Shown: piece after piece, positions 3,237-42,634 of the stretch
Position numbering within the stretch: the stretch's first letter is position 1
Layout: every line of letters begins with the position of its first letter
Assembly: GCA_013360915.1 (NCBI GenBank)
Contig: JABWAT010000020.1
Location: 1 to 43,380, forward strand
Direction of reading: 5' to 3'
Length of the DNA stretch: 43,380 nucleotides
Origin: Bacteroidota bacterium
GTDB taxonomy: Bacteria; Bacteroidota; JABWAT01
Notes under the pieces: generated by a model
Told to the model about the DNA's origin: nothing
Database searches by the model: none
What the model saw: only the letters and a program-made list of their open reading frames with translations
Made by a program: the position numbers and the translations under genes

Positions 3237-6047
3237 ATGAAACAGGTCGTTACTGCAGGAATTCTTCTTTTCATTCTGGCATCAGCCGGTTTTACGCAGA
3301 CCGATTCAGATTGGAGTTCAGCTTTTAATCTGTCCGGCGTTACCAATGGGGTGGTGTATGCCATTGCGGAAGACAGTTCTGGCAATGTCTGGATTGGTGG
3401 CAGTTTTTCGGGAGTGGATGGCATTCCATCAAAAAACCTGGCGTATTGGGATGGATCGAAATGGAATGGTTTTACGACGGGAGCCAATAACACGGTATTT
3501 GATATTGAAGTGGATGGAACCGGAACTGTGTTCATTGGCGGGGCTTTTTCCTCGGTGGAAGGGGTATCGGCGAATCTGGTTGCCAGATGGAACGGCGTTT
3601 CATGGTCGGCCTTGCCGGGCGGGCTTTCGGGTACCGGTGGACCGCAGGTGTGGTCGCTGGCCATCGACGAAAATGATGATTTATGGATTGGGGGATTTTT
3701 CCAATCACCCGATTCGAACCTGGTGAAATTTGACGGAACTTCCTTTACCGGATTTACATACTCACCCAATTCCACCGTGCGGGCTTTGCATCACAACGGA
3801 TCATTCTTGTTTGCATCGGGGGCTTTTACTTCGGTGGGCGGACTTTCCACCGGCAGGCTTGCCAGTTATGATGGAAGCGTCTGGCGTGATTTAGGCGCTA
3901 ACGCGGCATCCATGTCTGTAAACAGCATCACCTCGGTTTCCTCGGGCACCATTTATGTCGGGGGGACTTTTACTTCCATCGGTGGAGTTTCCACCACCTA
4001 TCTCGCTAAAGCAGTCGTCGGAAAATCATCGGTTACCTGGAGTGGCTTTGGTTTTTCGGTGAATGGTTCCGTTCAGATGGTAGATTACAATGAAAGCCTT
4101 GGGTTGATTTTTCTCGGAGGGACTTTCAGCACGCCATCTTCCTATCTGGCCACGCTGAACACATCGGGAACCTTTAATCCAACCGGAACACCTGCTGCGC
4201 CCGATCTGGCCGTTTACTCGCTGAAAGCTTTGGAAAGTGGTGTTACCACCATCGGCGGAACCTTCTATGAAGTGGGAGGGAACGAATCGCCCGGCATTGC
4301 CCAAATCAAAACCAATCTGTCTTCCCGTGCCATGACGGCCGTGACCGGTGGCTGGGGTGCCAACAGCACCGTTGCGAAAATCGTGAAGCATCCGGTAACC
4401 GGATCGATCATCGTTGCCGGCAGCTTTACCCGGATCGGTGGAATTGAAGCGCCGTATCTCGCCAGTTTTAATGGCACTTCCTGGAGTGGGTACGGATCCG
4501 GACCCAATGGAACGGTGAATGACATCGATTTCATGTCGGATGGGGACATGATTATTGGTGGTCAGTTCACAGAAGTGAATGGGGTGTCTGCAAACCGTGT
4601 AGCCCGGCTGAACGGGAAAAACTGGGAGGCTGTTGCAGCGGATGGACCCAATAACACCGTTTACGCCGTAACTGTTACTCAACAGGATTCTGTTTTTATT
4701 GGTGGTGTGTTTACCCAAACTGCCGGATTTTTCTCTTTGCAGCGGTTTGCAAAATTGCACAATGGTGTCTGGGTGAACCGGGGTGCTTCGGGAACACCAA
4801 CCGTTTTCGACCTGACGACCGGCCCCGATACCTCGGTGTATGTGGCCATGTCATCAACACTGGGACCTTTTTCCGGTGGAACGTTTAACCGGGTTGGAAA
4901 CTATAAAAATGGGGTATATAACAATCTGCTGAATGGAACCACTGCCGGGATCGCCTATACCTGGGGTCGATCGCCCGACAATACCATGCTCGTGGGCGGA
5001 ACATTTGGTACCATGTTTACCAGTGTTGGCAAAATTGCCGAATGGACCGGTTCCACCTGGGCGGCTGTTTCGATGAATTCCTCAACCGGATTTACCGGAA
5101 TTTCCGATGAGGTTCGGGCCATTGCTGCACACTCCGATGGTCGCTTGTTTATTGGGGGATTGTTCACTGCTGGCTGGACTCAATCAGCTTCCAATCTGCT
5201 GATGGTATTTAATGATGTGGTGTACCCGATGGGATCGGGAACCAACTCGACCGTTTATACCGTCTGTGTGGATGAGGAGAACAATGAAATCTGGGTGGGA
5301 GGTACCTTTCTCACCGCGGGAAATAAACCGGCCGTCCGGCTCTCCCGCATGAGCCTGGCCAATACGGTGCCTGTTGAATTGGTTTCATTTACCGGAATCA
5401 TTGCCGGTGATCAGTTCATCCTGAATTGGTCCACCAAATCGGAAACGACTAATTTTGGATGGGAAGTACAGAGGTTTCTTCCGGACCCTGAGGTTCTCGA
5501 AGGGACAGGAAGAAACCTTTCAGAAACAGACCCTTCGGACCCGGTCATTGAGCGAAGTCGAAATGCAGGGTCCGGAATTCAGAATTCGGAAGAGTGGGAG
5601 ACCGTTGGATTTGTGGCAGGAAGCGGTACTACCAATTCTCCAAAATCGTATTCCTTCCAATCACCAATCATGGACCCTGAGCGGAGTCGAAGTGCTGCTC
5701 GCCAGTCACTGTTTCGTCTGAAGCAACTCGATCTCGATGGAACCGTGTCTTACAGTCAGATCCTTACCATTGACGCTTCACCTACCGGGTTCCACTTGCT
5801 GGGGAATTATCCGAATCCGTTCAACCCAACGACGGTAATCCGTTATCAGCTATCTGCAATCAGTGAAGTGAAGCTGCAGGTTTTTGATGTGACAGGACGA
5901 CTGGTATCCACGTTGGTGAATGGAAAAGCAGAACCGGGAACGCATGCTGTTCCTTTCCGGGCGACCGGTCTGGCAAGCGGGGTGTATTACTATCAACTAA
6001 CGGCAGGGAACCAGAAAGTGACCGGTAAAATGATGCTTATCCGATAA
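3237..6047 (+). CDS. Secreted multi-repeat propeller-like protein with T9SS type A sorting domain, disrupted by in-frame repeat insertions
   Basis: The 936-residue product starts with a signal peptide (MKQVVTAGILLFILASAGFTQ) after an AGGGGG ribosome site. Residues about 25-720 hold roughly thirteen degenerate repeats of about 50 residues. Each has a GG-x-F core (WIGGSFSGVDG, FIGGAFSSVEG, VGGTFTSIGG and so on) followed by an 'A-x-W-x-G-x-x-W' segment, resembling Kelch or galactose-oxidase-type propeller blades. A short beta domain (VPVELVSFTGIIAGDQFILN) follows at about 710-745. The C-terminal 85 residues are a T9SS type A domain (GNYPNPFNPTT, VFDVTGR, ASGVYYYQL), so the protein is exported across the outer membrane and probably surface-anchored. 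Residues about 746-785 and 812-820 are translated miniature repeats (VIERSRNAG, DPERSRSA) with no counterpart in the fold. Ligand is unknown. Confidence 0.88.
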   Translation: MKQVVTAGILLFILASAGFTQTDSDWSSAFNLSGVTNGVVYAIAEDSSGNVWIGGSFSGVDGIPSKNLAYWDGSKWNGFTTGANNTVFDIEVDGTGTVFIGGAFSSVEGVSANLVARWNGVSWSALPGGLSGTGGPQVWSLAIDENDDLWIGGFFQSPDSNLVKFDGTSFTGFTYSPNSTVRALHHNGSFLFASGAFTSVGGLSTGRLASYDGSVWRDLGANAASMSVNSITSVSSGTIYVGGTFTSIGGVSTTYLAKAVVGKSSVTWSGFGFSVNGSVQMVDYNESLGLIFLGGTFSTPSSYLATLNTSGTFNPTGTPAAPDLAVYSLKALESGVTTIGGTFYEVGGNESPGIAQIKTNLSSRAMTAVTGGWGANSTVAKIVKHPVTGSIIVAGSFTRIGGIEAPYLASFNGTSWSGYGSGPNGTVNDIDFMSDGDMIIGGQFTEVNGVSANRVARLNGKNWEAVAADGPNNTVYAVTVTQQDSVFIGGVFTQTAGFFSLQRFAKLHNGVWVNRGASGTPTVFDLTTGPDTSVYVAMSSTLGPFSGGTFNRVGNYKNGVYNNLLNGTTAGIAYTWGRSPDNTMLVGGTFGTMFTSVGKIAEWTGSTWAAVSMNSSTGFTGISDEVRAIAAHSDGRLFIGGLFTAGWTQSASNLLMVFNDVVYPMGSGTNSTVYTVCVDEENNEIWVGGTFLTAGNKPAVRLSRMSLANTVPVELVSFTGIIAGDQFILNWSTKSETTNFGWEVQRFLPDPEVLEGTGRNLSETDPSDPVIERSRNAGSGIQNSEEWETVGFVAGSGTTNSPKSYSFQSPIMDPERSRSAARQSLFRLKQLDLDGTVSYSQILTIDASPTGFHLLGNYPNPFNPTTVIRYQLSAISEVKLQVFDVTGRLVSTLVNGKAEPGTHAVPFRATGLASGVYYYQLTAGNQKVTGKMMLIR
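5471..5592. repeat. Composite miniature palindromic repeat inserted in coding sequence
   Basis: Perfect 11-nt inverted arms AGGTTTCTTCC (5472-5482) and GGAAGAAACCT (5508-5518) enclose a 25-nt core that contains CCCTGAGGTTCTCGAAGGG. A second unit follows at 5543-5573 (GGTCATTGAGCGAAGTCGAA and on), matching the reverse complement of 42747-42777 apart from two bases. The block ends with GGAATTCAGAATTCGGA, similar to 42437-42470. The whole block keeps the reading frame of the surrounding gene open. Confidence 0.85.
5672..5695. repeat. Miniature 'ERSR' palindromic repeat within the T9SS cargo gene
   Basis: GGACCCTGAGCGGAGTCGAA is nearly identical to the elements at 22362-22385 and 23790-23813 and is read in frame as DPERSRSA. 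It is the second insertion in the same gene. Confidence 0.8.
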
Positions 6048-6057
6048 CACGTCTTCG

Positions 6058-6090
6058 TAAACCTCCCGTTCAATGTCGGGAGGTTTTTAT
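6058..6090. terminator. Bidirectional intrinsic terminator between convergent genes
   Basis: AAACCTCCCG and CGGGAGGTTT pair as a 10-bp stem around an 8-nt loop (TTCAATGT), followed by TTTAT on the plus strand and preceded by an A-rich run for the minus strand. It serves the gene ending at 6047 and the convergent gene whose TAA stop at 6087-6089 overlaps the T tract. Confidence 0.9.
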
Positions 6091-6983
6091 TTACTTAATA
6101 TCACCACCTGAGAAGAAGCATACTTTCCGGCTTGTAACCGGACGATATAGGCACCCGAAGATAAACCCGATGCATTAAAGATTTGGGTGTAAATCCCGGG
6201 TGGCATGTAACCCGACCGGAGCACTGATACTTCCTTTCCCGTCATATCGAATACAGAAAGCCGGATAGTTGTACCAAAGGGAAGGGAAAAGGGAATTTTG
6301 GTAACCGGGTTAAACGGATTCGGATAGTTTTTCAACAACGATGGTGCAATGGGAACCGGTGATTCATCCTCTGTATCCAGGTACCAACCCGTGGTATCAC
6401 CATAGGCGGTGCCGTCTATTATACAGCCTTTTAAAACGATCGATCCTCCACCTTCAGATTCTGTTTCCTGGAGTAAACCAAATTTTTCAGAATATAATTG
6501 TGTATGTGAAATTAATCCTATAGAACTCACACGAATTTCCACAGAATCATTTATGCCGAAAACATTTAATTGTTCGTTTCGAGAGTAGTAAAAGTCAATT
6601 GGCCATATTGATACAATTGTATCACCAGTTTCCTGGGTAATATACCTCGTAGTATCATTAAATGATATTATTTCAGAGATGTTTTGATTTCCATAAAAAA
6701 AAGGTATCCATCTGGAGTTGAGTGAATCAATGGGATCGTCAATATATGACCAGTATACATTTTGAGAATCAACTCTAATTGGTTGAAAAAAGGGGAGTGT
6801 TTTGATTTTATTATCAAATAAAAAGTATTCTGATCCATCATTGTGATAACTATCTATTATTTTACTACCCCATTTTTGAGTAAGGTTTGAGTAAAACCAG
6901 CCATTCCCAACTTTGTACGGTAATCTGGATTGGGAATAACAAAAAAACGGAATTATGAGAAAAATTGTTAAAATCGCTTTCAT
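6087..6983 (-). CDS. Secreted protein with T9SS type A sorting domain, cargo domain unknown
   Basis: 298 residues. Signal peptide MKAILTIFLIIPFFCYSQS, then about 190 residues of unrecognised, Asn/Tyr/Ser-rich cargo domain, then a canonical T9SS C-terminal domain from about residue 215 (LLKNYPNPFNPVTKI, VFDMTGKEVSVL, SSGAYIVRLQAGKYAS). The ATG at 6983 follows AAGGAGTCTTT, a strong ribosome site. The signal peptide and cargo part (about 6430-6983) are clearly more AT-rich than the surrounding genes, whereas the sorting domain is not, which suggests an imported or fast-evolving cargo domain joined to a resident sorting signal. The gene is monocistronic, bounded by a terminator at 6058-6090 and by a hairpin at 7000-7037 upstream. 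Confidence 0.85.
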   Translation of the reverse strand: MKAILTIFLIIPFFCYSQSRLPYKVGNGWFYSNLTQKWGSKIIDSYHNDGSEYFLFDNKIKTLPFFQPIRVDSQNVYWSYIDDPIDSLNSRWIPFFYGNQNISEIISFNDTTRYITQETGDTIVSIWPIDFYYSRNEQLNVFGINDSVEIRVSSIGLISHTQLYSEKFGLLQETESEGGGSIVLKGCIIDGTAYGDTTGWYLDTEDESPVPIAPSLLKNYPNPFNPVTKIPFSLPFGTTIRLSVFDMTGKEVSVLRSGYMPPGIYTQIFNASGLSSGAYIVRLQAGKYASSQVVILSK

Positions 6984-6999
6984 AAAGACTCCTTGAATA

Positions 7000-7037
7000 C
7001 TAAAAAGCCTGATTTAGAAATAAATCCGGCTTTTTAG
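7000..7037. terminator. Long-stem intrinsic terminator, probably for the decayed gene at 7040-7264
   Basis: CTAAAAAGCC pairs with GGCTTTTTAG and the pairing continues inward with TGATTTA/TAAATCC, giving a 17-bp stem with one mismatch around a GAAA tetraloop. It lies three bases beyond the stop of the minus-strand fragment, and T-rich flanks exist on both strands. Confidence 0.85.
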
Positions 7038-7039
7038 AA

Positions 7040-7264
7040 TTATTTGGATAAAAGAAGTTTACCAGTTTTGGTAATCTGTTCAAATTGAACCTTATAGTAA
7101 TAAACACCGGATGACAAACCTTGAGCATTAAACTCCAAAAGGTTGGAACCCTCAACACCATGTCCATCAAATAAATCACGGACTTTTAAGTTGGTTTGAT
7201 AATTGGAAACATCACAATCTGAATCAATTTTAAATTCATATTTCCGAATGAAGAACCGCAGCAA
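7040..7264 (-). pseudogene. Remnant of a T9SS sorting domain gene
   Basis: The last 47 residues (VRDLFDGHGVEGSNLLEFNA then QGLSSGVYYYKVQFEQITKT and GKLLLSK) match the C-terminal half of a T9SS type A domain: strand, 'GLSSGVYYYK', then 'TGKLLLSK' before the stop. The NYPNPFNP start of the domain, any cargo domain and a signal peptide are all missing, and the 27 residues before the match are not recognisable. A different minus-strand frame just upstream (about 7205-7310) reads as protein-like sequence (NWINYDRVNATDEVN), consistent with frameshifts in a once longer gene. It still has its own terminator hairpin. It could alternatively be a very short real gene, but without export signal that makes little sense. 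Confidence 0.6.
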
Positions 7265-7544
7265 TTTACTTCATCAGTAGCGTTGACACGGTCATAATTT
7301 ATCCAGTTTTTAAATGAAAGAAAAGATACAAACAAGTACCAAAATCCATTTACCAGCAATTTAATACCAGCTCAAGGTTTAGTGGTTAATTCAGAAAAAC
7401 ATATTACGAAAATAATCAAGCAATAATTGGTTGGGTGCTTAAAATATGTAACCAAAATAACTCTTAAAGGTTTAACCTCCGGCAGGCTGTTCGGGAAACC
7501 GGGTAGCCTTCTTTTTTTGCGAAACGGAAAAGAAAAACGGGGAA
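7265..7544. other. AT-rich intergenic region with decayed coding sequence
   Basis: 280 nt, strongly AT-rich, without an intact reading frame on either strand. The right part of the remnant described at 7040-7264 extends into it. Near 7490-7520 a weak inverted pair AGGCT/AGCCT followed on the minus strand by an A/T-rich tract could terminate the response regulator gene, but the stem is too short to be sure. Confidence 0.4.
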
Positions 7545-18093: not shown

Positions 18094-18222
18094 ATGGACG
18101 CCAAGACGCCAGGACGCAAAGGTTCAATTCGTTTTAACACGAAGAGCGCCAAGGGTTCATAACCAGGAACGCAATGGTTATTAGTACAGGAAACTCAGCG
18201 CCTTAGCGTCTTCGCGTACATA
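18094..18222. repeat. CGCAAAG-type miniature repeat in the 341-nt gap before the lipoprotein gene
   Basis: The ends are imperfect inverted copies: ATGGACGCCAAGACGCCAGG at the left and CCTTAGCGTCTTCGCGTACAT at the right. Between them lie AGGACGCAAAGG, AACACGAAGAGCGCCAAGGG and TTCATAACCAGGAACGCAA, phrases that recur at 22130-22350, 23665-23785, 25090-25310 and, in part, 29425-29599. No gene is present in 18039-18379. Downstream of the repeat, TTGACA at 18306-18311 followed by an oligo-T run and TTAATATT could be a promoter, but the spacing to any -10-like sequence is not convincing. Confidence 0.7.
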
Positions 18223-18379: not shown

Positions 18380-19291
18380 ATGAAAAAGAATCGTTTATTT
18401 GGTCTGCAGATACTGGCTTTGGGAATGCTGGTATCTGCCTGCGTCGAGCCCAAATTTGCCGAGGAAACAGCGCAAACAGACAGAAATGCGGGAGTTCGGT
18501 TAAGGCCAAGCCAGGCGTATGCTGCATTCTACGAAGAAGAGGTTTTATCGGTAAAGCCACGGATCAGAGGGAGCATTCTTGCCAAAGGAGCCAGTGAGGC
18601 GGAAGCCCCCATTCTGACCCGTTATGAAAAGGCCATGGTCGTGGAAAACTGGGATAGCACAGGCCGTTTTTCCTACGAAAAAACCTTCGTGGATGGCACC
18701 TACGAAGGGAAAGCCTTTGCTCCTTCCAAGAGAGGTGAACCAGGACCGGGAGAAATTAAAGAATCTGAATTTCACAAGGGCATGAAAGTCAGACGATTGG
18801 TTATAAATGACCACGAATCAGTATCCTACCTGGATAACGGAGAGGTGAAAAGGACTCCCATACCCGATGCAGTTTTAACAGAAATTGAACGGATTAAACA
18901 GGAAACGGGTGAGTGGGTCCCTTCCACCGGACCCGATACCACCGGTGGTCTGAACGGTAAATGGTTGGAGCAATTGGAAAAGTCTGTGACCCGTAATGGT
19001 GGAACACTGAGCATTAACAATAAGAATCAGATTTCAGCCATTTTCAAACAATCCCAATCAGATGACTACCTGCACATCCTGATGGATGGTAATACCGGAA
19101 TGACTCTACAGGAAGCCTTGTATGTAGGAGGATCCCTTTCACTGCTGACCAAATATGCCTATACCGAAATTGGAAACCGGTTCTTCCCGGTTATGATATC
19201 GACCCGGTTATTCGATAGGGTGGATGGCAGGTTGACCCTGATATCTGAGACAATGGAAACACGCAACAAGTACCGGATCATGCCGAAGTAG
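18380..19291 (+). CDS. Lipoprotein of unknown function, first gene of the hydrolase/propeller cluster
   Basis: 303 residues. The ATG at 18380 follows GGGAG at good spacing and starts a lipoprotein signal, MKKNRLFGLQILALGMLVSA before the lipid-carrying Cys (V-S-A-C lipobox). The mature part is hydrophilic and rich in Lys/Glu with several beta-strand-like repeats (RYEKAMVVENWDSTGRFSYE, GMKVRRLVINDHESVSYLDN). I do not recognise a family. The next gene starts 9 nt after its stop, so it is co-transcribed with the secreted hydrolase and could be its partner or chaperone; there is no direct evidence for that. Confidence 0.8.
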   Translation: MKKNRLFGLQILALGMLVSACVEPKFAEETAQTDRNAGVRLRPSQAYAAFYEEEVLSVKPRIRGSILAKGASEAEAPILTRYEKAMVVENWDSTGRFSYEKTFVDGTYEGKAFAPSKRGEPGPGEIKESEFHKGMKVRRLVINDHESVSYLDNGEVKRTPIPDAVLTEIERIKQETGEWVPSTGPDTTGGLNGKWLEQLEKSVTRNGGTLSINNKNQISAIFKQSQSDDYLHILMDGNTGMTLQEALYVGGSLSLLTKYAYTEIGNRFFPVMISTRLFDRVDGRLTLISETMETRNKYRIMPK

Positions 19292-19300
19292 GAGTTACCC

Positions 19301-20917
19301 ATGAAAACCATTATTACTTTTATTATTTTGTTTCTGTTAACAGCAGCCAGCATTGCCCAAACCAAATATGGAATCATCTTTCTACCCGGTGTGGGAGGAA
19401 GCTCGTATGAAACCTATATTGGTCAACCAGACGCGCCAGACTTAACTTATGATCACAACCTCCTCTTGAATCAATTAAGAGGCACACTCGGACAGGATTT
19501 GCGCGTTATTGATAACCTTACCTTTCAACATGTCGCCCTTTCTGTGAGGGCAACACAGTTGAATCAAAAGATTGGTGAATGGATGCAGGATAGTGACTTT
19601 GCCAACCGGGAATGGTTTATATTCGGACATAGCATGGGAGGCGTGACCGCAGCCTATTTTAACAAGGTTGCCAATACGAACCCGCAATTTAAAATTCGTG
19701 GCACCATTGCCATGCAGTCACCCTTTCAGGGAATAGAAACGCTCAAGGGGGGGAAATATTTTTTGGAACAGAAGTTTAACCTACAAATGAATGAACTTGG
19801 TATGGGGGTCAATGGTGACAATCCGTGGTTGCTGACGGATTTAATAGATGTTATTCATGTTCCAATCGATTTATTTAATGCTATGATTAGTGGCGGGAAT
19901 GGACCACAGACCCCACGGACACCACTTGCGTTTGAATTTATGGTAGATTTTATACGGGAAGAGTTAAAAAATAAAAAGAATGAAGCATCTGTTGGCTTCT
20001 ATGATCTGATGGGTGATGATCGAACAGATGTAAAATCCATGCAAAAAGGGCATCCTGATATTGAAACCATCAGAAATAATACATTTGCTACTGATTACCT
20101 GATAATTGGGGCGACAGACTTTAACTTGACTGCTATCCGATTGGTAGGTTCCAAGCCTAATTATTGTTTAAGTAAACCGGAAATTAAGGATTACTGGAAA
20201 TTTATTATGGCTCCTACTCTTGGTATGAGTTTAGCTGGAAATGATGATTTTAATGTTAGAAAACATCTGGGACCTGCGCATTCTGTCGCAATGACCTATG
20301 CGCTAAGAACATTTTTTGATAACAGAGTTACAGAATACCGGGCCTCTGAGCATCGGTTTAAAACATTATACGACGTAAGTCTTCAGTTAGTCGGTGAATG
20401 GAGATATCAAATGAATAAAGCGAAGGCAGCAAAAGAAAGATACATCGTTTCAAGAAGGGCGGTTGAGAACCTTGATATTGCCGCACAGGATCTAACCAAT
20501 GATCTTGATATTGAAACGGAAACCGTGGTCATTCATCACTATGGTATCAGCAACCAGTGGTTACAGGCTTGCCAAACTGCCAACACCGACGTTGGATTCA
20601 AAGTGGAAAATTACTCTGTTCTTCCTGCCCTTCTGACATATGATTGTGATGATCCGCTTTTCGTAAATTGGACAGAAACAAGGACAACCATTCTTTCCAT
20701 CAACACGGTTGAAACCGATGGGATGATTGCCTTGAAGAACCAGAAACCAACCAATGCTGCAGGTTCGTGGTATGAGGCACCAAACACAAACCCAAACGAT
20801 GGCCATAACCATGCCGCTGCCCTGTGGGTCGTAAAACCCTGGAACAAACAGGAAACCGAAACCATGCGTGAAACGAAAAGGTGGATTCGTGAAAAATATA
20901 ATGAAGACAATGAGTAA
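19301..20917 (+). CDS. Secreted alpha/beta-hydrolase (lipase/esterase-like)
   Basis: 538 residues. Signal peptide MKTIITFIILFLLTAASIAQ; the fold begins at once with the oxyanion-hole segment IIFLPGVGGSSYET (about 25-38), then the nucleophile elbow FGHSMGG with Ser111, as in lipases and PGAP1-type hydrolases. Candidate acid and His residues are not certain (HNHAAALW near 500 supplies histidines). At over 500 residues it is longer than a minimal lipase, so the C-terminal half probably holds an extra domain. AGGAG precedes the ATG. Base composition falls toward AT from about 19,750, unlike neighbouring genes. No T9SS domain is present, so the product is periplasmic or released by another route. 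Its stop overlaps the first propeller lipoprotein gene, and its last ~25 codons are copied twice downstream. Confidence 0.85.
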   Translation: MKTIITFIILFLLTAASIAQTKYGIIFLPGVGGSSYETYIGQPDAPDLTYDHNLLLNQLRGTLGQDLRVIDNLTFQHVALSVRATQLNQKIGEWMQDSDFANREWFIFGHSMGGVTAAYFNKVANTNPQFKIRGTIAMQSPFQGIETLKGGKYFLEQKFNLQMNELGMGVNGDNPWLLTDLIDVIHVPIDLFNAMISGGNGPQTPRTPLAFEFMVDFIREELKNKKNEASVGFYDLMGDDRTDVKSMQKGHPDIETIRNNTFATDYLIIGATDFNLTAIRLVGSKPNYCLSKPEIKDYWKFIMAPTLGMSLAGNDDFNVRKHLGPAHSVAMTYALRTFFDNRVTEYRASEHRFKTLYDVSLQLVGEWRYQMNKAKAAKERYIVSRRAVENLDIAAQDLTNDLDIETETVVIHHYGISNQWLQACQTANTDVGFKVENYSVLPALLTYDCDDPLFVNWTETRTTILSINTVETDGMIALKNQKPTNAAGSWYEAPNTNPNDGHNHAAALWVVKPWNKQETETMRETKRWIREKYNEDNE

Positions 20918-22121
20918 ATTATTACTATTTATATTTTCACTAGCATTCTTGGTCAGTTGCAATAATGATACAGATGACAAATATTCATCTAAAATCTTGA
21001 AGTTTGTTTGGAAAGTAGATTTAAAAAAAGTTCAGGGCTATCAGGGTTTTGAATTGCCATCCATCGATGGTAACTATGCTTACTTTCCGAATGGTCCAGA
21101 TATTGAATGCAGGGAACTTTCCACGGGAAGGTCAATCTGGAAAAAGCGTGTTACAAACGGAACAGTTGATTATATTGGAACAAACTTTAGTTTCAATAGT
21201 GAAAACATATTGATTGATGATGCCTTTTCAACACGCTTATTAAACAAGTTAACTGGAGAACAAATCTGGATTGCACCAGATTCGGGTGTTCAACGTGTTT
21301 ATGGTTCACTTGGAACAATAGATAACATACATGGTTATAGATTCCCTTCAATATATTTACCAAAGGAACTCCAACAGTTTGATTGTAGGACTGGTAATAA
21401 AATACAATCAATTTATTCTGATTCAGGATCGTTCAATTCAGTAGTTGCCAATTCATTTGGTGTCTTTGCAAATACTTTAGCTGCATATCGTGATAAGGTC
21501 ACTGATGAACGAATTAGCTTCGGGACACTTGTAAAGATTAACCCAGAGACCGGTAATCTTGATTTTAAGATCCGAATTCAACCACGATGGTTTAAAGATG
21601 TTGGTTATGGATTTTATTTATCAACTAGTTCAGAACTTTTTTCAAAACCCGCCTTTGATCAACAATTTGGTTATTGTTCTTTTAAAGATGGAACAACAAT
21701 AAAGTTCATTCCTGAAACAGGTAATATCGTTTGGAAATATGAATTACCCATCACCAATTACCGTCGTGACTTTCCGGATGCCATCAGTGTATTCCCAGAT
21801 GAAGAGAAAGGCCTTGTCTTTGTCACCGGCGGCCGTGATAGCTGGTTCTGTCTGGATATGGAAACCGGCAAGCAACTCTACTGGAAACGTCTGTCGGAAT
21901 ACGATGGAATGATTGATCCATCCAGTTACGATGGCAACCGGTATGTGTTTAAACCGCATACGTATGGTCAGTATGAGTGGTACATCATCGACATCACCAC
22001 CGGCGAAGTGGTCGAGGAATTCGATATCCCCGATGATTCCATTCTCTCGCAGGATGTGAAGAACGGGTACGTGGCTGCATTCGGGGTCGGGAGTTTCTAC
22101 GTATTTAAAATCGTCCGGTAA
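20901..22121 (+). CDS. PQQ/BamB-like propeller lipoprotein, copy 1 of 3
   Basis: About 406 residues. The frame opens inside the hydrolase gene; ATGs at 20901 and 20910 both precede a lipoprotein signal (MSKLLLFIFSLAFLVSC). I give 20901; 20910 is equally possible and either overlaps the hydrolase stop. The mature protein has propeller-blade motifs of the PQQ_2 type: GRSIWKKRV, GEQIWIAPDSG, GNIVWKYELP, GKQLYWKRL. Residues up to about 275 diverge strongly from copies 2 and 3 and are AT-rich. The last ~130 residues, from WKYELPITNYRRDF to FYVFKIVR, are almost identical in all three copies. A BamB-like scaffold or an inhibitor/partner of the hydrolase are both conceivable. Confidence 0.85.
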   Translation: MKTMSKLLLFIFSLAFLVSCNNDTDDKYSSKILKFVWKVDLKKVQGYQGFELPSIDGNYAYFPNGPDIECRELSTGRSIWKKRVTNGTVDYIGTNFSFNSENILIDDAFSTRLLNKLTGEQIWIAPDSGVQRVYGSLGTIDNIHGYRFPSIYLPKELQQFDCRTGNKIQSIYSDSGSFNSVVANSFGVFANTLAAYRDKVTDERISFGTLVKINPETGNLDFKIRIQPRWFKDVGYGFYLSTSSELFSKPAFDQQFGYCSFKDGTTIKFIPETGNIVWKYELPITNYRRDFPDAISVFPDEEKGLVFVTGGRDSWFCLDMETGKQLYWKRLSEYDGMIDPSSYDGNRYVFKPHTYGQYEWYIIDITTGEVVEEFDIPDDSILSQDVKNGYVAAFGVGSFYVFKIVR

Positions 22122-22124
22122 AAT

Positions 22125-22355
22125 ACATTTTAACGCGAAGGACGCAAAATGTTCATTACCAAGGGCGCAAAGTTTTTCAATTTTAAAACGCTGCGTCTTG
22201 GCGTTCCTTCCTGGCGACTTTGCGTTTAAATCCTTTTGCCGCTAAGGGCGCAAAGTGTTCATAACCAGGAACGCAAAGATTATTTGTAGTTTTCAATTCA
22301 GGAATCTCTGCGGTCTTTGCGAATTCTTTGCGTCATTGCGATTAAATGTCTGCAC
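22125..22355. repeat. CGCAAAG/CTTTGCG intergenic repeat after propeller copy 1
   Basis: A 230-nt array-like block made of AACGCGAAGGACGCAAA, CCAAGGGCGCAAAG, TGCGTCTTGGCGTTCC, CCGCTAAGGGCGCAAAG, TCTGCGGTCTTTGCG and TTTGCGTCATTGCG. The first ~165 nt are nearly identical to 25085-25260 after copy 3, while the last part matches the end of the block after copy 2 (23725-23785). The gap 22122-22454 holds this block, a 24-nt palindrome and a gene fragment, and no other gene. Confidence 0.8.
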
Positions 22356-22361
22356 TGTGAC

Positions 22362-22385
22362 GGTCCCTGAGCGGAGCCGAAGGGA
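22362..22385. repeat. Miniature 'ERSR' palindrome
   Basis: GGTCCCTGAGCGGAGCCGAA followed by GGGACC; the outer GGTCCC/GGGACC pair perfectly. It joins the CGCAAAG repeat to the duplicated hydrolase tail. Confidence 0.8.
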
Positions 22386-22458
22386 CCCCTGGAACAAACA
22401 GGAAACCGAAACCATGCGTGAAGCGAAAAGGTGGATAGAAAATAAGAGTAGGCCGTGA
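22386..22458 (+). pseudogene. Duplicated 3' end of the hydrolase gene (fragment 1)
   Basis: CCCTGGAACAAACAGGAAAC and the following 45 nt match the hydrolase gene at 20837-20890 with single substitutions and encode PWNKQETETMREAKRWI, against PWNKQETETMRETKRWI in the parent. The frame ends at TGA 22456-22458, which overlaps the GTG start of propeller copy 2 (GTGA). There is no start signal of its own, so it is a relic of a tandem duplication rather than a gene. Confidence 0.85.
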
Positions 22459-23660
22459 TAAAGCTATCCCTATTAATCCATCTTTGTTTTTGTTCCTTGA
22501 TAATTTCAGGCTGTTCTGAAAATCCAGAAAGTGCAAATTCAAAGTTTTTAAAGCTTGTGTGGAAAGCACCATTGACAAAAATTGAACCATCACAAGGATT
22601 TGAACTACCCACAATTGATGGTAACCGGGTTTATTTTCCAAATGGTCCTGATGTAGAATGCAGGGAGTTGTCCACTGGCAAAATCATTTGGAAGGCCAAT
22701 ATAACCGGTAAAACCAGAGATTATAATGGAACCCGTTTTTTGATTAACAACTCAATTATTGTTGTAAACGACACCTATTCTACCTCTGCATTTGATAAGT
22801 ATTCTGGAGAAAGACGGTGGATCGCTCCTGATTCAGGTGAGTTCAGACGATATGGCATCATGAATTGGATTGACAATGAATTTGGTTACAGGCGAGGGCA
22901 AGCAAATTTTATTCAATTTAACTTAAACGATGGAAATACAATTAAAATGTTTCCGATTGACACTGGCGCTGCCCGGGCAATAAATACCAGTAAGCATGGT
23001 GTATTCTGTTCGACATTTGCTGGTTATGTTAACGATCTGGGAAAGGAAATTTACGAGTTTGGTACACTTAAAAAATTTGATCCTGTAACTGGTCAGCAAA
23101 TTTTCAGTTTCCGGTGTACCCCACGTTATTTTAATTTTGGTGGTTACTCTGACTACCTGTCGACCATTACCAATCTCTTCGCAGTGCCGGTATTGTTAGA
23201 TTCAGTTGGGTATGCGGTTTTTCGGGATGGAACGGTTTTCAGGTTCAGACAATCCGATGGGTATTTGTATTGGAAATATGAATTACCCATCACCAATTAC
23301 CGTCGTGACTTTCCGGATGCCATCAGTGTATTCCCAGATGAAGAAAAAGGCCTTGTTTTTGTGACCGGCGGCCGGGATAGCTGGTTCTGTCTCGATATGG
23401 AAACCGGCAAGCAACTCTATTGGAAGCGGTTGTCGGAATACGATGGAATGATTTTTCCATCCAGTTACGATGGCAACCGGTATGTGTTTAAGCCACATAC
23501 ATACGGCCAGTATGAGTGGTATATCATCGACATAACCACTGGCGAAGTGGTAGAGGAATTCGATATCCCCGATGATTCCATTCTCTCGCAGGATGTGAAG
23601 AACGGGTACGTGGCTGCATTCGGGGTCGGGAGTTTCTACGTATTTAAAATCATCCGGTAA
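22455..23660 (+). CDS. PQQ/BamB-like propeller lipoprotein, copy 2 of 3
   Basis: 401 residues starting with GTG, whose GTGA overlaps the stop of the hydrolase-tail fragment. Lipoprotein signal MIKLSLLIHLCFCSLIISGC with a good lipobox (I-S-G-C). Blade motifs: GKIIWKANITGK, GERRWIAPDSGE, DGYLYWKYELP, GKQLYWKRL. It is closer to copy 3 than to copy 1: both share GPDVECR, WKANITGK, ILVVND/IVVND-YSTSAFDK and the block TITNLFAVPVLLDSVGYAVF. From about residue 272 to the end it is almost identical to the other two copies. Expected to be attached to the inner or outer membrane facing the periplasm. Function unknown. Confidence 0.85.
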   Translation: MIKLSLLIHLCFCSLIISGCSENPESANSKFLKLVWKAPLTKIEPSQGFELPTIDGNRVYFPNGPDVECRELSTGKIIWKANITGKTRDYNGTRFLINNSIIVVNDTYSTSAFDKYSGERRWIAPDSGEFRRYGIMNWIDNEFGYRRGQANFIQFNLNDGNTIKMFPIDTGAARAINTSKHGVFCSTFAGYVNDLGKEIYEFGTLKKFDPVTGQQIFSFRCTPRYFNFGGYSDYLSTITNLFAVPVLLDSVGYAVFRDGTVFRFRQSDGYLYWKYELPITNYRRDFPDAISVFPDEEKGLVFVTGGRDSWFCLDMETGKQLYWKRLSEYDGMIFPSSYDGNRYVFKPHTYGQYEWYIIDITTGEVVEEFDIPDDSILSQDVKNGYVAAFGVGSFYVFKIIR

Positions 23661-23663
23661 TTC

Positions 23664-23785
23664 GTTTTACCGCAAAGTCGCAAAGGGTTCATATCCAAGT
23701 ACGCAAAGATTTTTTAGTTTTTTATACATGAATCTCTGCGGTCTTTGCGAATCCTTTGCGTCATTGCGTTTAAATGTCTGCCCTG
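23664..23785. repeat. CGCAAAG/CTTTGCG intergenic repeat after propeller copy 2
   Basis: A shorter version of the blocks after copies 1 and 3: ACCGCAAAGTCGCAAAGGG, TACGCAAAG, ATCTCTGCGGTCTTTGCG, CCTTTGCGTCATTGCG, then TTTAAATGTCTGC leading into the palindrome at 23790. Confidence 0.8.
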
Positions 23786-23789
23786 TGAC

Positions 23790-23813
23790 GGTCCCTGAGC
23801 GGAGTCGAAGGGA
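23790..23813. repeat. Miniature 'ERSR' palindrome
   Basis: GGTCCCTGAGCGGAGTCGAA then GGGA, one base different from 22362-22385 and in the same position relative to the hydrolase-tail fragment. Confidence 0.8.
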
Positions 23814-23892
23814 ACCCTGGAACAAACAGGAAACCGAAACCATGCGTGAAGCGAAAAGGTGGATTGATGAACGTCGAGTAGGTCAAAAGTGA
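23814..23892 (+). pseudogene. Duplicated 3' end of the hydrolase gene (fragment 2)
   Basis: ACCCTGGAACAAACAGGAAA and what follows encode PWNKQETETMREAKRWIDER, matching the hydrolase C-terminus. The frame ends with TGA at 23890-23892, overlapping the GTG of propeller copy 3 as GTGA, exactly as in fragment 1. It has no start codon context. Confidence 0.85.
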
Positions 23893-25085
23893 AAATGCAC
23901 TTTGTTTTGCTTGCTGGTTTGATTTTCAGTTCATGCACAGAACCCAACGAGGATTCGCTGAACTCAAAATATTTGAAATTGGCGTGGAAGGTTGATCTTA
24001 AGAAGATACAGGGTTTCCAGGGCTTTGAGTTACCGTTGATCGATGGTGACCGGGTTTACTTTCCTAACGGTCCCGATGTTGAGTGTCGAAACCTGTATAA
24101 TGGAAATCTCATCTGGAAGGCAAATATAACTGGAAAGGAAAGGGACTATACCGGGACCAATTTTATGGTGAACAGTTCAATCCTGGTGGTCAACGATATC
24201 TACTCAACATCGGCCTTTGATAAGATTACCGGGGTAAGGAAATGGATGGCACCCGATTCTGGTATTCACCGGTCATCGGGGACAATGAATACCATTGACG
24301 AAAATTTTGGATACAGAAAGATTCATTCAGACTTCATTCAATTTGATCTGTCAACCGGATTGACAATTAAAGAATTTGATGTTGATACTGGTGGAGTTCG
24401 ATCCATTATGTCAAATATGAATGGAGTATTTGGATCAACAATTGCAACTCGGTATGGTGAAGGAGGCACTGAAATTTATAATTTTGGTGAATTGAAAAAA
24501 TTTGATCCAATTACAGGAAATCAAGTATTTAGTATACGCGCAGTACCACGGTGGTTCAAGGATGGTGGGTACGGGTTCTATCCACAGACCATTACTAATC
24601 TCTTCGCAGTTCCGGTATTGTTAGATTCAGTTGGGTATGCGGTTTTTCGGGATGGAACGGTTTTCAAGTTCAGGCAATCTGATGGGTATTTGTATTGGAA
24701 ATATGAATTACCCATCACCAAATACCGACTTGATTTTCCGGATGCAATCAGTGTATTCCCAGATGAAGAAAAAGGCCTTGTCTTTGTGACTGGCGGCCGG
24801 GATAACTGGTTCTGTCTCGATATGGAAACCGGCAAGCAACTCTATTGGAAGCGGTTGTCGGAATATGATGGAATGATTGATCCATCCAGTTACGATGGCA
24901 ACCGGTATGTGTTTAAGCCACATACCTATGGCCAGTATGAGTGGTACATCATCGACATCACCACCGGTGAGGTGGTAGAGGAATTCGATATCCCCGATGA
25001 TTCCATTCTCTCGCAGGATGTGAAGAACGGGTACGTGGCTGCCTTCGGGGTCGGGAGTTTCTACGTATTTAAAATCATCCGGTAA
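23889..25085 (+). CDS. PQQ/BamB-like propeller lipoprotein, copy 3 of 3
   Basis: 398 residues from the GTG at 23889 (an ATG two codons later is possible). Lipoprotein signal MKMHFVLLAGLIFSSC, then TEPNEDSLNSKYLKLAWKVD. The WKVDLKKIQGFQGFELP segment resembles copy 1 (WKVDLKKVQGYQGFELP), whereas GPDVECR, WKANITGK, VVNDIYSTSAFDK and LFAVPVLLDSVGYAVF resemble copy 2, so the copy is a mosaic of both. Blades: GNLIWKANI, GVRKWMAPDSG, DGYLYWKYELP, GKQLYWKRL. The terminal ~130 residues are shared by all three copies. It ends the tandem array; the intergenic block after it matches that after copy 1. Confidence 0.85.
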   Translation: MKMHFVLLAGLIFSSCTEPNEDSLNSKYLKLAWKVDLKKIQGFQGFELPLIDGDRVYFPNGPDVECRNLYNGNLIWKANITGKERDYTGTNFMVNSSILVVNDIYSTSAFDKITGVRKWMAPDSGIHRSSGTMNTIDENFGYRKIHSDFIQFDLSTGLTIKEFDVDTGGVRSIMSNMNGVFGSTIATRYGEGGTEIYNFGELKKFDPITGNQVFSIRAVPRWFKDGGYGFYPQTITNLFAVPVLLDSVGYAVFRDGTVFKFRQSDGYLYWKYELPITKYRLDFPDAISVFPDEEKGLVFVTGGRDNWFCLDMETGKQLYWKRLSEYDGMIDPSSYDGNRYVFKPHTYGQYEWYIIDITTGEVVEEFDIPDDSILSQDVKNGYVAAFGVGSFYVFKIIR

Positions 25086-25089
25086 AATA

Positions 25090-25310
25090 CATTTAAACGC
25101 GAAGGACGCAAAGTGTTCATAACCAAGGGCGCAAAGTTTTTCAATTTTATAACGCTACGTCTTGGCGTTCCTTCCTGGCGACTTTGCGTTTAAATCCTTT
25201 TACCGCTAAGGGCGCAAAGTGTTCATAACCATGAACTCAAAGGTTTTTTGGTTTTCAATTCAAGAATATCTGCGGTCTTTCCGAATTCTTTGCATCATTG
25301 CGTTTAGGCA
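25090..25310. repeat. CGCAAAG/CTTTGCG intergenic repeat after propeller copy 3
   Basis: Nearly identical to 22125-22330 for its first ~165 nt (AACGCGAAGGACGCAAAGTG, CCAAGGGCGCAAAG, CTTGGCGTTCCTTCCTGGCG, CCGCTAAGGGCGCAAAG), then more diverged. No palindrome and no hydrolase-tail fragment follows, which marks the end of the duplicated array. No gene in 25086-25381. Confidence 0.8.
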
Positions 25311-25381: not shown

Positions 25382-28105
25382 TTGAAACATTTCCTGTTCT
25401 TTCTTTTGGTTATCGGATTTGGGTTAACCGATCTGGTTGCTCAACACCAACCGGTCAGGGTTCATTTGCCTGTACCTGGGGGGGTGCAAAAGGTCTCTCT
25501 GCCTAAAAAAATGGCCCCTGCCGACACGGCAACGGTCCGGTCATTTTTCGTCAGGAATATTCAGGATCAAAGTAAATGGCATTCCATCCGCTTTAACCTG
25601 GCGGCCCGGTTCGATGGGATCCATGTGTGGGTGGATACCAGTTCGGTTTACCGGAAAATCAATCCAATCCAGATGGATTCTCTTCTTTACCTTTTTCACT
25701 ATCATCTGGTGGAAAGGACATCCTCATTTTCGGTAGATTCCACCAAGGGAATTGTTCCCCTTTCCATATCCCTTCTGGGAAATTTACCCAATCGTGCTGG
25801 TGATGAGGTGTTGAATATTCTGCTACTCGATATCCGGGATGATTTTCTGGTGACCGGGCAATACATCGCCGGGTTTTTTGATCCGGTCGATCAATTGGAA
25901 TACCCAACCAGCAATCAACGTGATATTCTCTACATTGATGTCTTTCCGACCCTGATTTTTAACCAGACAATAACGGTTGAGGGCTCTCTTCAAACGGCCG
26001 CTCACGAACTTCAGCATCTGGTCCATTCACAATATTCCGATCCGGACAATCCGGAATGGGTGTCCATAAATGAGGGGTGCTCTGAACTGATGGAATATCT
26101 GTGTGGTTTTGAGCCAAGACCCGTCACCCGATTCCAGAAAAATACAGAAAAAAGCTGGGCAATCTGGAAGGATCAGGATGCCATTTTATCCTATGAACAA
26201 AGTCTGGTTTTTATCAGTTGGTTTTACTTCAGGTATGGGCTTTCTGCTTTTCAGCAATTGATCTGGTCTAGATCGGTTGGCCTCGACGGGTTTGCAGCCA
26301 ATCCAACCCTACCCGATTATACAACGCTGAACCGGCAATGGATATCCGATTTATTCCTGCGCCCATTCAGACCGGATCAAACTCCGTTTCCACCCCGTTG
26401 GCAACCCGATCTGTCGTTGCTACCCACTGAACCAAACCGGTTTTTCCCTGTTGAAGGATTCACGAAACAAGATCCGGGTGGGTTTTCCTCACTCTTGCTT
26501 GAGGGATCTTCCATCTATTCTATTGGGGTAAGTTCACTGATAAAAACCGACTTGTTATGGTTACCATTCACGACCGATAAAGAACCGCAGTGGTTTTCAT
26601 TCAAATCTGGTGAGACCCTATCCATCCAAACCGACTCTGAAAAACCAGTGCTGATGGTTCTTGTCAATGCTGAACATCCCGATGTAAACGAGCCTTCATT
26701 GGGTAATCAGATCAGTTATCGGATTGAAGGGGAACCGGAAAGGGTGGTATTGACCATCCGTCAGGATGACGGGAAGTCGGATGAATTTATGGGTTCGGCC
26801 CGTTTTCTTCGTCTGCCCGATTCCATCCGGTCCTTTGCCCAGTGGATCCCAATCGATCACCCGGATTATTCCGGTATCAGGGATGTGTCGTTCCTGGGTG
26901 GATTTCTTTCTGAGTTCGACGGGACGGAGGTCGATTCGGATGCTCCCAGACAATTTGAACTTCAATTCTTTGATTCACTGTGCAGGCAGATTGGTGATCA
27001 GATTTTGTGCAAATCGGGACGTCCTTATGCGCAAATCCGTTTCGAAACCATTTCCTTGCCTGTTGGTCATGCCGTTCAGACCTATACCGGGTCTGGTGTG
27101 TGGGTCGTTTTTTCATCCCATGCACCCTCGAAAAATGGGGTGGTGTTGGCCATGGATCGGGCAGGTCAATCTGGTTTCATGGTTATAAACAATCATGGGG
27201 ATTGGAGAAAACCATCCGATGTCTGGCCGGTGTCTTACGATCTGGCCGGTTTCATTCCCATGATCAGGCTTGGGGTGTCGGTCAAAGCCGTTCAACCAAC
27301 TCTGCCCACACCTTTTACCTGCACCTTTGACCGGGATTCTATATACTTCTCATTCACGCCAGGAAAGGGTTCCCTTTCTGTTGAATTAACCAGTCTGTTT
27401 GGTTGGGATAAACTGGATCTGAATCCGCAAATGGGAAAAGCAGCAGTTTACTTTCCGGTATCGGGCCCGGTTTTCATTCGCTCCGACTATCAGAACGGAG
27501 ATACGATCCGGACGGCTTCGTTTAAAATGGTTCGATTTCCCTGGCATGATCAGGAGGGCTTTTTTCAGTGGTCAGTCGGCAAACAATTGGAATTGCAGGT
27601 GGCATCTGCAGGTATTCCTGCTGATAAACTCTGGGGGTTTGTCAGCAGGGAAACCAATGCGTCGATTGAATTGAATCCGGTCAGAAAAACACCGGGAGGT
27701 CCGGGTATCCTGATCACCTGTTCAAAACCGGTTCATGTTTCGGGAACAGGCATCCGGCAGATTTCCCCAACCAGCTTTTACTGGTCGCTTGAAGGCCATG
27801 TGGTGATTACTCCAGAAGAGAAACAGGTGATATCTGGTGTTCCTGACTGGTTTACGGTTTCCGGTGCCTTTCCGAATCCGGCTAATCCGTCAACCACTTT
27901 TGAAATTAAAAGCGATCGCGTGCAACCCATTCAGATAGGGGTTTACACAGTGTTGGGTCAATTGATCAGTAAAGAGGAGATGATGGTCAACCCCGGCAGG
28001 CAATGGTATGCCTTGTCGTTTGCAGGTAAGTCAACGGGTTTCTATTGGGTACAATTTGATGGTGCCGGAATCCGTCAAACGCAGAGGGTGCTGCTCCTGA
28101 AGTGA
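25382..28105 (+). CDS. Secreted M30-like zinc metalloprotease with T9SS sorting domain
   Basis: 907 residues beginning with TTG; no ATG would preserve the signal peptide (MKHFLFFLLVIGFGLTDLVA). A zinc-protease motif AAHELQHLVH gives HELQH at 208-212, followed about 20 residues later by WVSINEGCSELMEYL with Glu231 and Glu235 as candidate third ligand. That order resembles the hyicolysin/M30-type 'HELQH...NEG.SE' arrangement. The long middle region (about 350-820) is beta-rich and unassigned. The final ~75 residues are a T9SS type A domain (GAFPNPANPSTTFEI, VYTVLGQLI, STGFYWVQFDG, QRVLLLK), so the enzyme is secreted or surface-bound and probably digests external protein. A strong ribosome site is not visible before the TTG. 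Repeats flank it on both sides. Confidence 0.85.
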   Translation: MKHFLFFLLVIGFGLTDLVAQHQPVRVHLPVPGGVQKVSLPKKMAPADTATVRSFFVRNIQDQSKWHSIRFNLAARFDGIHVWVDTSSVYRKINPIQMDSLLYLFHYHLVERTSSFSVDSTKGIVPLSISLLGNLPNRAGDEVLNILLLDIRDDFLVTGQYIAGFFDPVDQLEYPTSNQRDILYIDVFPTLIFNQTITVEGSLQTAAHELQHLVHSQYSDPDNPEWVSINEGCSELMEYLCGFEPRPVTRFQKNTEKSWAIWKDQDAILSYEQSLVFISWFYFRYGLSAFQQLIWSRSVGLDGFAANPTLPDYTTLNRQWISDLFLRPFRPDQTPFPPRWQPDLSLLPTEPNRFFPVEGFTKQDPGGFSSLLLEGSSIYSIGVSSLIKTDLLWLPFTTDKEPQWFSFKSGETLSIQTDSEKPVLMVLVNAEHPDVNEPSLGNQISYRIEGEPERVVLTIRQDDGKSDEFMGSARFLRLPDSIRSFAQWIPIDHPDYSGIRDVSFLGGFLSEFDGTEVDSDAPRQFELQFFDSLCRQIGDQILCKSGRPYAQIRFETISLPVGHAVQTYTGSGVWVVFSSHAPSKNGVVLAMDRAGQSGFMVINNHGDWRKPSDVWPVSYDLAGFIPMIRLGVSVKAVQPTLPTPFTCTFDRDSIYFSFTPGKGSLSVELTSLFGWDKLDLNPQMGKAAVYFPVSGPVFIRSDYQNGDTIRTASFKMVRFPWHDQEGFFQWSVGKQLELQVASAGIPADKLWGFVSRETNASIELNPVRKTPGGPGILITCSKPVHVSGTGIRQISPTSFYWSLEGHVVITPEEKQVISGVPDWFTVSGAFPNPANPSTTFEIKSDRVQPIQIGVYTVLGQLISKEEMMVNPGRQWYALSFAGKSTGFYWVQFDGAGIRQTQRVLLLK

Positions 28106-42419: not shown

Positions 42420-42634
42420 GACAGGAGACAGAATAGGAATTCAGAATTCAGAATACAGAATTCAGAATACGGAAAAACCCGGACCCTGAGGTTCTCGAAG
42501 GGTAAGGGTTTTTCAGTGACGGGTGGGCAGAGATCGGAATTCGGCCCTTCGACTCCGCTCAGGGACCAAGTCGAAATGCAGGGACCGGAATACGGAATTT
42601 CACCCTCTCCGCCGGTGAGGGAAGGGGTGAGGGT
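42420..42634. repeat. Cluster of miniature repeats after the permease gene
   Basis: From left to right: a short tandem run of GAATTCAGAATAC-like units (42437-42470); AAAAACCC (42473-42480) and GGGTTTTT (42506-42513) enclosing the same 25-nt core found at 5483-5507; CCCTTCGACTCCGCTCAGGG at 42546-42565; AAGTCGAAATGCAGGGACCG at about 42569-42588; and CACCCTCTCC...GGTGAGGG...GGGGTGAGGG at 42601-42634. No reading frame here looks like a protein. Confidence 0.75.

Follow-up and report, generated by a model that had tools for sequence, protein, structure and literature searches.

Several described systems pair antibacterial enzymes with immunity proteins in ways that resemble the genes reported here. 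TplE (Tle4) is a PGAP1-type antibacterial lipase effector with a periplasmic immunity protein (PMC5611513). Tli immunity proteins can be outer-membrane lipoproteins (PMC9860674), and the immunity protein Tsi1 is a partial propeller (PMC3391265). Arrays of EsaG and TipC immunity genes recombine via conserved blocks, which for esaG take in intergenic DNA as well as the 3′ end of the gene (PMC9484751). Zhang et al. (2012, PMC3482391) describe toxin-cassette arrays and polyimmunity loci. We analysed a locus in a 43,380-nucleotide (nt) stretch of DNA from a Bacteroidota bacterium (contig JABWAT010000020.1 of assembly GCA_013360915.1; hereafter ‘the window’). It encodes a lipoprotein (A), a lipase-like enzyme (B), three propeller lipoproteins (C1 to C3) and a peptidase (D), and severed tails of the B gene (b) lie in front of C2 and C3. 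The gene system to which the locus belongs is real and recurrent and has apparently not been described before; its sequence and relatives are best interpreted as a variant of polymorphic toxin–immunity systems. No prior description of the gene set was found in the open-licence literature, and there was no convincing match to anti-phage defence families. The genes, all on the forward (+) strand, are as follows.

18380..19291, +: A, lipoprotein of ~304 amino acids (aa) with a lipobox signal (from sequence and family profile)
19301..20917, +: B, 538-aa Sec-exported alpha/beta hydrolase of PGAP1/DUF676/bacterial lipase type (from motifs and profile matches)
20901..22121, +: C1, 406-aa BamB-fold propeller lipoprotein (from PQQ_2, lipobox and a structure model)
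21732..22118, +: 3′ part of C1, its last 129 codons, nearly unchanged in all C copies of the genome
22455..23660, +: C2, 401-aa propeller lipoprotein with a GTG start (from PQQ_2 and lipobox)
23889..25085, +: C3, 398-aa propeller lipoprotein with a GTG start (from PQQ_2 and lipobox)
25382..28105, +: D, ~907-aa lugdulysin-like protein resembling HExxH..NEG metallopeptidases and sorted to the type IX secretion system (T9SS), exact start uncertain

The original prediction, made from the window alone, named the first five of these genes (a lipoprotein, a hydrolase with a GHSMGG motif and three propeller lipoproteins), and all five lie where it placed them. Its claim of overlapping starts holds for C1, which overlaps the stop of B by 17 nt, but not for C2 and C3, which begin ~230–330 nt past the preceding C. 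D, the next gene after C3, proved to be part of the conserved set.

The locus shares with the lipase effectors of the type VI secretion system (T6SS; Tle4/TplE with Tli4/TplEi, and Tle1/Tle3 with Tli) a GxSxG alpha/beta hydrolase followed by a gene for an envelope partner. It differs from them in the Sec signal of B, in a partner that is a full propeller of BamB fold and in the extra genes A and D; moreover, 14 of the 15 genomes checked here lack the T6SS protein TssC. As in the esaG and tipC loci of the type VII secretion system, paralogous immunity-like genes stand in strings with conserved recombination blocks around variable segments, but here the upstream arm is the severed end of the enzyme gene, and the products are lipoproteins of Bacteroidota rather than Firmicute proteins. 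Polymorphic toxin loci likewise carry units of toxin fragment plus immunity gene after a complete pair, and the framework set out in the cited parts of PMC3482391 already includes alpha/beta-hydrolase toxins and lipobox immunity proteins. Unlike the toxins treated there, B has neither a repeat-rich N-terminal delivery region nor a separable C-terminal toxin domain, and no immunity class of propeller type was found in those parts. BamB itself resembles C in fold, whereas C is multiplied, recombining and tied to A and B.

B is probably a lipase. Its catalytic triad, predicted from conservation, would consist of S111 (in GHSMGG, residues 109–114), D473 (TDG) and H504 (GHNH), with an insertion of ~300 residues separating the Ser from the Asp and His; GxSxG plus a conserved Asp and His is the Ser-Asp-His combination of lipases. 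B matches bacterial lipases at E values of about 1e-5 to 1e-9, and its relatives score over the Pfam cut-offs for PGAP1 and DUF676. The Tle4–Tli4 structure was not among the sequence matches of B in the PDB. B has an ordinary Sec signal peptide, as the original prediction noted, and shows no delivery domain in Pfam or NCBIfam.

C1 to C3 all match Pfam PQQ_2, and each has a lipobox cysteine. A structure model of C1, built from five sequences (pLDDT 67, pTM 0.68), found BamB structures as its best Foldseek matches (TM about 0.6–0.7, 12–14% identity). Scores against the BamB equivalog TIGR03300 reach at most 30, far under its cut-off of 285.2. We considered and rejected C as BamB or a metabolic enzyme: the model fits the BamB fold, family cut-offs are failed, and C is judged to have the BamB fold without being BamB.

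On a second contig, C9, the 3.65-Mb genome has a fourth C gene, which again follows a 3′ fragment of B. Among these four copies, the last 129 residues are 96–99% identical, with a synonymous divergence (dS) of 0.20–0.50. The preceding 250 residues are 45–66% identical with saturated dS, which confirms the predicted contrast between divergent fronts and near-identical ends. The 5′ parts are 45–51% identical to those of the sister genus, so copies within the genome differ about as much as genera do; the 3′ part is 61–66% identical between genera. The contrast within the genome arises because homogenized 3′ halves, which are under concerted evolution, sit beside old 5′ variants, together with recombination. 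It had been attributed to diversifying selection on the N-terminal blades, a claim that we drop: with dS saturated and the ratio of nonsynonymous (dN) to synonymous divergence at about 0.1–0.3 where computable, the restrained dN of the 5′ part argues against ongoing diversifying selection as well as free decay.

The spaces before C2 and C3 hold pieces of the B gene. Its last ~59 nt are copied before C2 (22385–22443, 86% identity) and before C3 (23813–23871, 95%). Within them lies a 49-nt anchor with exactly four copies in the genome, which vary by no more than one base. Each copy is 15–27 nt ahead of a C gene: one in the tail of B itself, one ahead of each of C2 and C3, and one ahead of the fourth C on C9. 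The relevant features are these.

20838..20886, +: 49-nt anchor within the B 3′ end
22118..22384, +: dispersed repeats of the GCGCAAAG..TTCATAACCA type between the genes, and a CTGAGCGGAGCCGAAGGG element that abuts the severed tail of B
22385..22458, +: b2, severed B 3′ end with anchor at 22388–22436, mini open reading frame (mini-ORF) MREAKRWIENKSRP from ATG 22414 and TGA at 22456–22458 (frame read from sequence)
23813..23892, +: b3, severed B 3′ end with anchor at 23816–23864, mini-ORF MREAKRWIDERRVGQK from ATG 23842 and TGA at 23890–23892 (frame read from sequence)

On C9 the B fragment is longer, covering B residues 325–533 at 78% identity without the GxSxG part. Compared with the C3 unit, 52 nt of the anchor are 100% identical on C9, versus only 74% over the longer alignment of the B fragment. 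A mini-ORF (MREAKRW...) runs from the ATG within the anchor; its stop codon and the GTG with which C2 or C3 begins overlap (GTGA), which suggests translational coupling of the B-tail mini-ORF with both genes.

Repeats of two kinds surround these units. A dispersed repeat of GCGAAGGGCGCAAAG..TTCATAACCA type, at window 18122–18186, 22118–22288 and 25082–25252 and at L024 4329–4410, 10457–10613 and 11926–12050, flanks the array and is also present elsewhere on C9. A short element, CTGAGCGGAGYCGAAGGG, lies at window 5677–5694, 22367–22384, 23795–23812 and 42545–42562 (chance expectation 0). Two of these copies abut the severed B tails, one ahead of C2 and one ahead of C3; the other two lie elsewhere in the window.

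Using profiles for A, B, C and D, we recovered related loci from a sample of 394 Bacteroidota genomes. Four families (f1, f16, f33, f50) carry the set, in the order A-B-C-D or D-A-B-C, and all four genes can be aligned across these loci. D-A-B-C is the order in f16, f33 and f50, which were reached via weak B matches elsewhere in the phylum. The A family was found in 10 of the 394 genomes, all 10 of which also have B by profile search. C directly follows B in every A-B locus with downstream sequence present, and D adjoins A-B-C in every complete related locus. The original prediction had asked whether copy number varies and pairs co-occur in other genomes: there are 1–4 C genes per B, and A and B co-occur. 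Neither outcome that would have refuted that prediction was seen, as C genes without an intact B were limited to units with a remnant B or to decayed loci, and the propellers fall short of the BamB cut-offs.

Two sister-genus genomes (G002 and G003, the Bacteroidetes bacterium UWPOB_BACT1 and BAC1 records) have A-B-C-C-D; a scan of genome contigs found no relatives beyond the two already known. In both assemblies the second C is broken within its conserved 3′ part, so the true copy number may be higher; such breaks are expected if further near-identical C copies collapsed. The breaks or N-runs are at L025 8797–8896 and at the starts of L026 and L028. G001, a third genome from this genus, lacks both A and B, and its sole match to C is that of a general propeller at 34% identity.

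A related set without D (A′-B′-C′) is present in G273, G363 and G505 (L096 6049–9831, L097 5723–9411 and L094 507–4034). It consists of a lipoprotein, a PGAP1-type hydrolase and a propeller lipoprotein. B′ and C′ are homologous to B and C, and no homology of A′ to A was detected beyond the signal peptide. We keep it apart from the A-B-C-D set, as a relative.

D has a match to lugdulysin, a metalloprotease of solved structure (E = 4.5e-30), and keeps the HExxH and NEG motifs. Its C-terminus carries a T9SS sorting domain (TIGR04183, 23.7 bits against a cut-off of 23); no such domain was found in A, B or C. We checked 15 genomes, including the window’s own, for secretion systems. The T9SS sortase model matched in 15 of 15, over its cut-off in 11. 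TssC (PF05943), whose model gave a positive control in E. coli, was absent from 14 of the 15, the window’s own among them, and on this basis we rejected T6SS delivery. Elsewhere in the window, G+C dips to 0.365 (surroundings ~0.53) at 6001–7500, adjoining a gene with a T9SS-tail-like match (6090–7013).

Units of B tail plus C are found in the window, on C9 and in G138, G400 and G398, and so extend to another family. The profiles give A-B-C-bC-bC-D in the window, D-A-B-C-C-bC in G138, D-A-B-C-bC in G400, D-A-B(broken)-C-bC-C in G398 and D-A-B-C in G261, G379, G387, G504 and G053. The front halves of array members are often 15–30% identical and the back halves about 50–85%. Trees of the two halves conflict (support 72–94): the third C of G138 groups with the first and second of G398 by its front and with the second of G138 by its back, and the second C of G400 joins the G138 genes in the front-half tree and the second C of G398 in the back-half tree. 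The mosaic pattern of the window is thus repeated in family f16. In addition, the b and second C of G400 are collinear with the B tail plus first C of G138. G514 offers a different arrangement (L090 6979–7887), where the B tail is the C-terminal part of a 303-aa frame whose front resembles an unrelated lipoprotein, with a C next.

The clearest exchange is between two sister species. G261 and G398 share 91% DNA identity over D and the first half of A. Beyond the middle of A they carry different alleles: the second half of A, B (about 45% aa identity) and the adjacent C1 (37% aa identity). The C-terminal half of A has been exchanged together with B. The single C of G261 is 93% DNA-identical to the C that closes the G398 array, its third, and by this alignment the displaced C has outlived its B in G398.

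Broken loci have a similar bias. The B of G398 is frameshifted and has lost ~40 residues including GHSLGG, while all three of its C genes are open. In G273, D is cut short after its N-terminal part and continues straight into a B tail; the C that comes next is the sole intact gene there. B′ carries a frameshift in G363, where C′ is intact. The decayed loci point one way, to a partner that outlives the enzyme, though some may be assembly errors.

These comparisons make a polymorphic lipase toxin with swappable immunity lipoproteins the best reading of the locus, and we consider it probable. Kept partners, enzyme fragments, joint replacement and front-half swaps are together more readily explained by a toxin whose immunity proteins can be exchanged than by a chaperone, a receptor or neutral duplication. 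Toxin-then-partner order, linked allele replacement and orphan or retained partner units, by which polymorphic toxin loci are recognized, are all found here. The original prediction of an effector–immunity-like pairing is partly supported, with strong backing from comparative genetics (co-occurrence, copy number, recombination and C outliving B); the toxic role of B and its contact with C we infer, along with the roles of A and D and the means of delivery. Under this reading, B would be an envelope-active lipase, harmful to cells without a matching C. C would be an outer-membrane propeller lipoprotein, periplasmic or on the surface, that binds and blocks B, with specificity carried by its variable N-terminal blades; C1, which adjoins B, is the presumed cognate partner. 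A would act as a B-specific lipoprotein carrier or chaperone, and D as a T9SS-exported peptidase aiding release or maturation of the weapon; both roles are conjectures based on synteny and, in the case of A, on its exchange along with B. New variants would arrive by homologous recombination between two common arms, the B 3′ end upstream and the C 3′ half with the following repeats downstream. The old C, often with the severed tail of its B, would be left as an orphan unit, and the resulting array would keep protection against other B variants. More tentatively, and with somewhat less than an even chance in our estimation, the locus may represent an undescribed class of Bacteroidota envelope toxin–immunity system, defined by a Sec-exported PGAP1-type lipase B, a co-varying carrier A, a T9SS peptidase D for release, neutralizing C propellers of BamB fold whose specificity blades are exchanged by recombination between the B gene end and the C 3′ half, and a kept repertoire of tail-plus-C units.

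Bacterial lipases often require dedicated partners, and C might instead be a foldase, activator, anchor or surface scaffold for B in secreted lipid or ester degradation. A-B-C-D would then be one surface hydrolase machine, whose modules are swapped together since the parts must fit. Loci with one B and one C are conserved in several families, the four genes always occur together, D is an exported peptidase and C has the scaffold fold of BamB, all of which suit such a machine. It leaves unexplained the orphan C genes with severed B tails, the displaced C that was kept and the C genes intact beside a lost B, and we regard it as unlikely. The variable front, constant back, repeated units and exact recombination arm could also be those of a surface antigen, or of a phage or predator receptor, that varies its exposed N-terminal blades, with B a mere neighbour whose 3′ end serves as an arm. 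Variation of C alone would need no new B alleles, however, and here B and half of A are exchanged along with C, and A and B strictly co-occur. Nor are the arrays silent cassettes, since each C in them possesses a start, a lipobox and an open frame of its own. We think a varying antigen or receptor very improbable.

Neutral tandem duplication of the B 3′ end plus C, mediated by repeats and accompanied by gene conversion of the 3′ halves, would give the extra copies no special role. The dispersed repeats that flank each unit, with related repeats elsewhere on C9, are what such duplication would use. Yet the C copies are open, and their 5′ parts combine saturated dS with restrained dN, which implies that they have long been kept under selection; a like type of array has also arisen in separate lineages. 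Duplication without function is therefore quite improbable in our judgement.

Several points weigh against a toxin with exchangeable immunity. Propeller lipoproteins also serve as scaffolds or enzymes. B matches no toxin-delivery domain and no T9SS tail in Pfam or NCBIfam, and its variation spans the entire protein, with no single swapped or separable C-terminal toxin domain. The absence of TssC from 14 of 15 genomes, together with the plain Sec signal of B, leaves delivery unexplained. A structure model of B from two sequences reached a pLDDT of 33; it was left unused and supports nothing. Clean allele replacement is known from one species pair only, and the sample held one genome per species, which limits its bearing on polymorphism within species. 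Several genomes are fragmented or metagenome-assembled, and misassembly may account for their frameshifts and array breaks. G449 is a counter-example to the survival of C, since a C behind a B tail is itself interrupted there.

If the reading of B and C as toxin and immunity is true, it would add a lipase weapon with propeller-type immunity lipoproteins in bacteria that mostly lack a T6SS, and would link antagonism to a T9SS-exported peptidase. It would also mean that an immunity repertoire can expand with part of the toxin gene itself serving as recombination arm. The sister-species pair G261 and G398 predicts which orphan lipoprotein should neutralize which enzyme.

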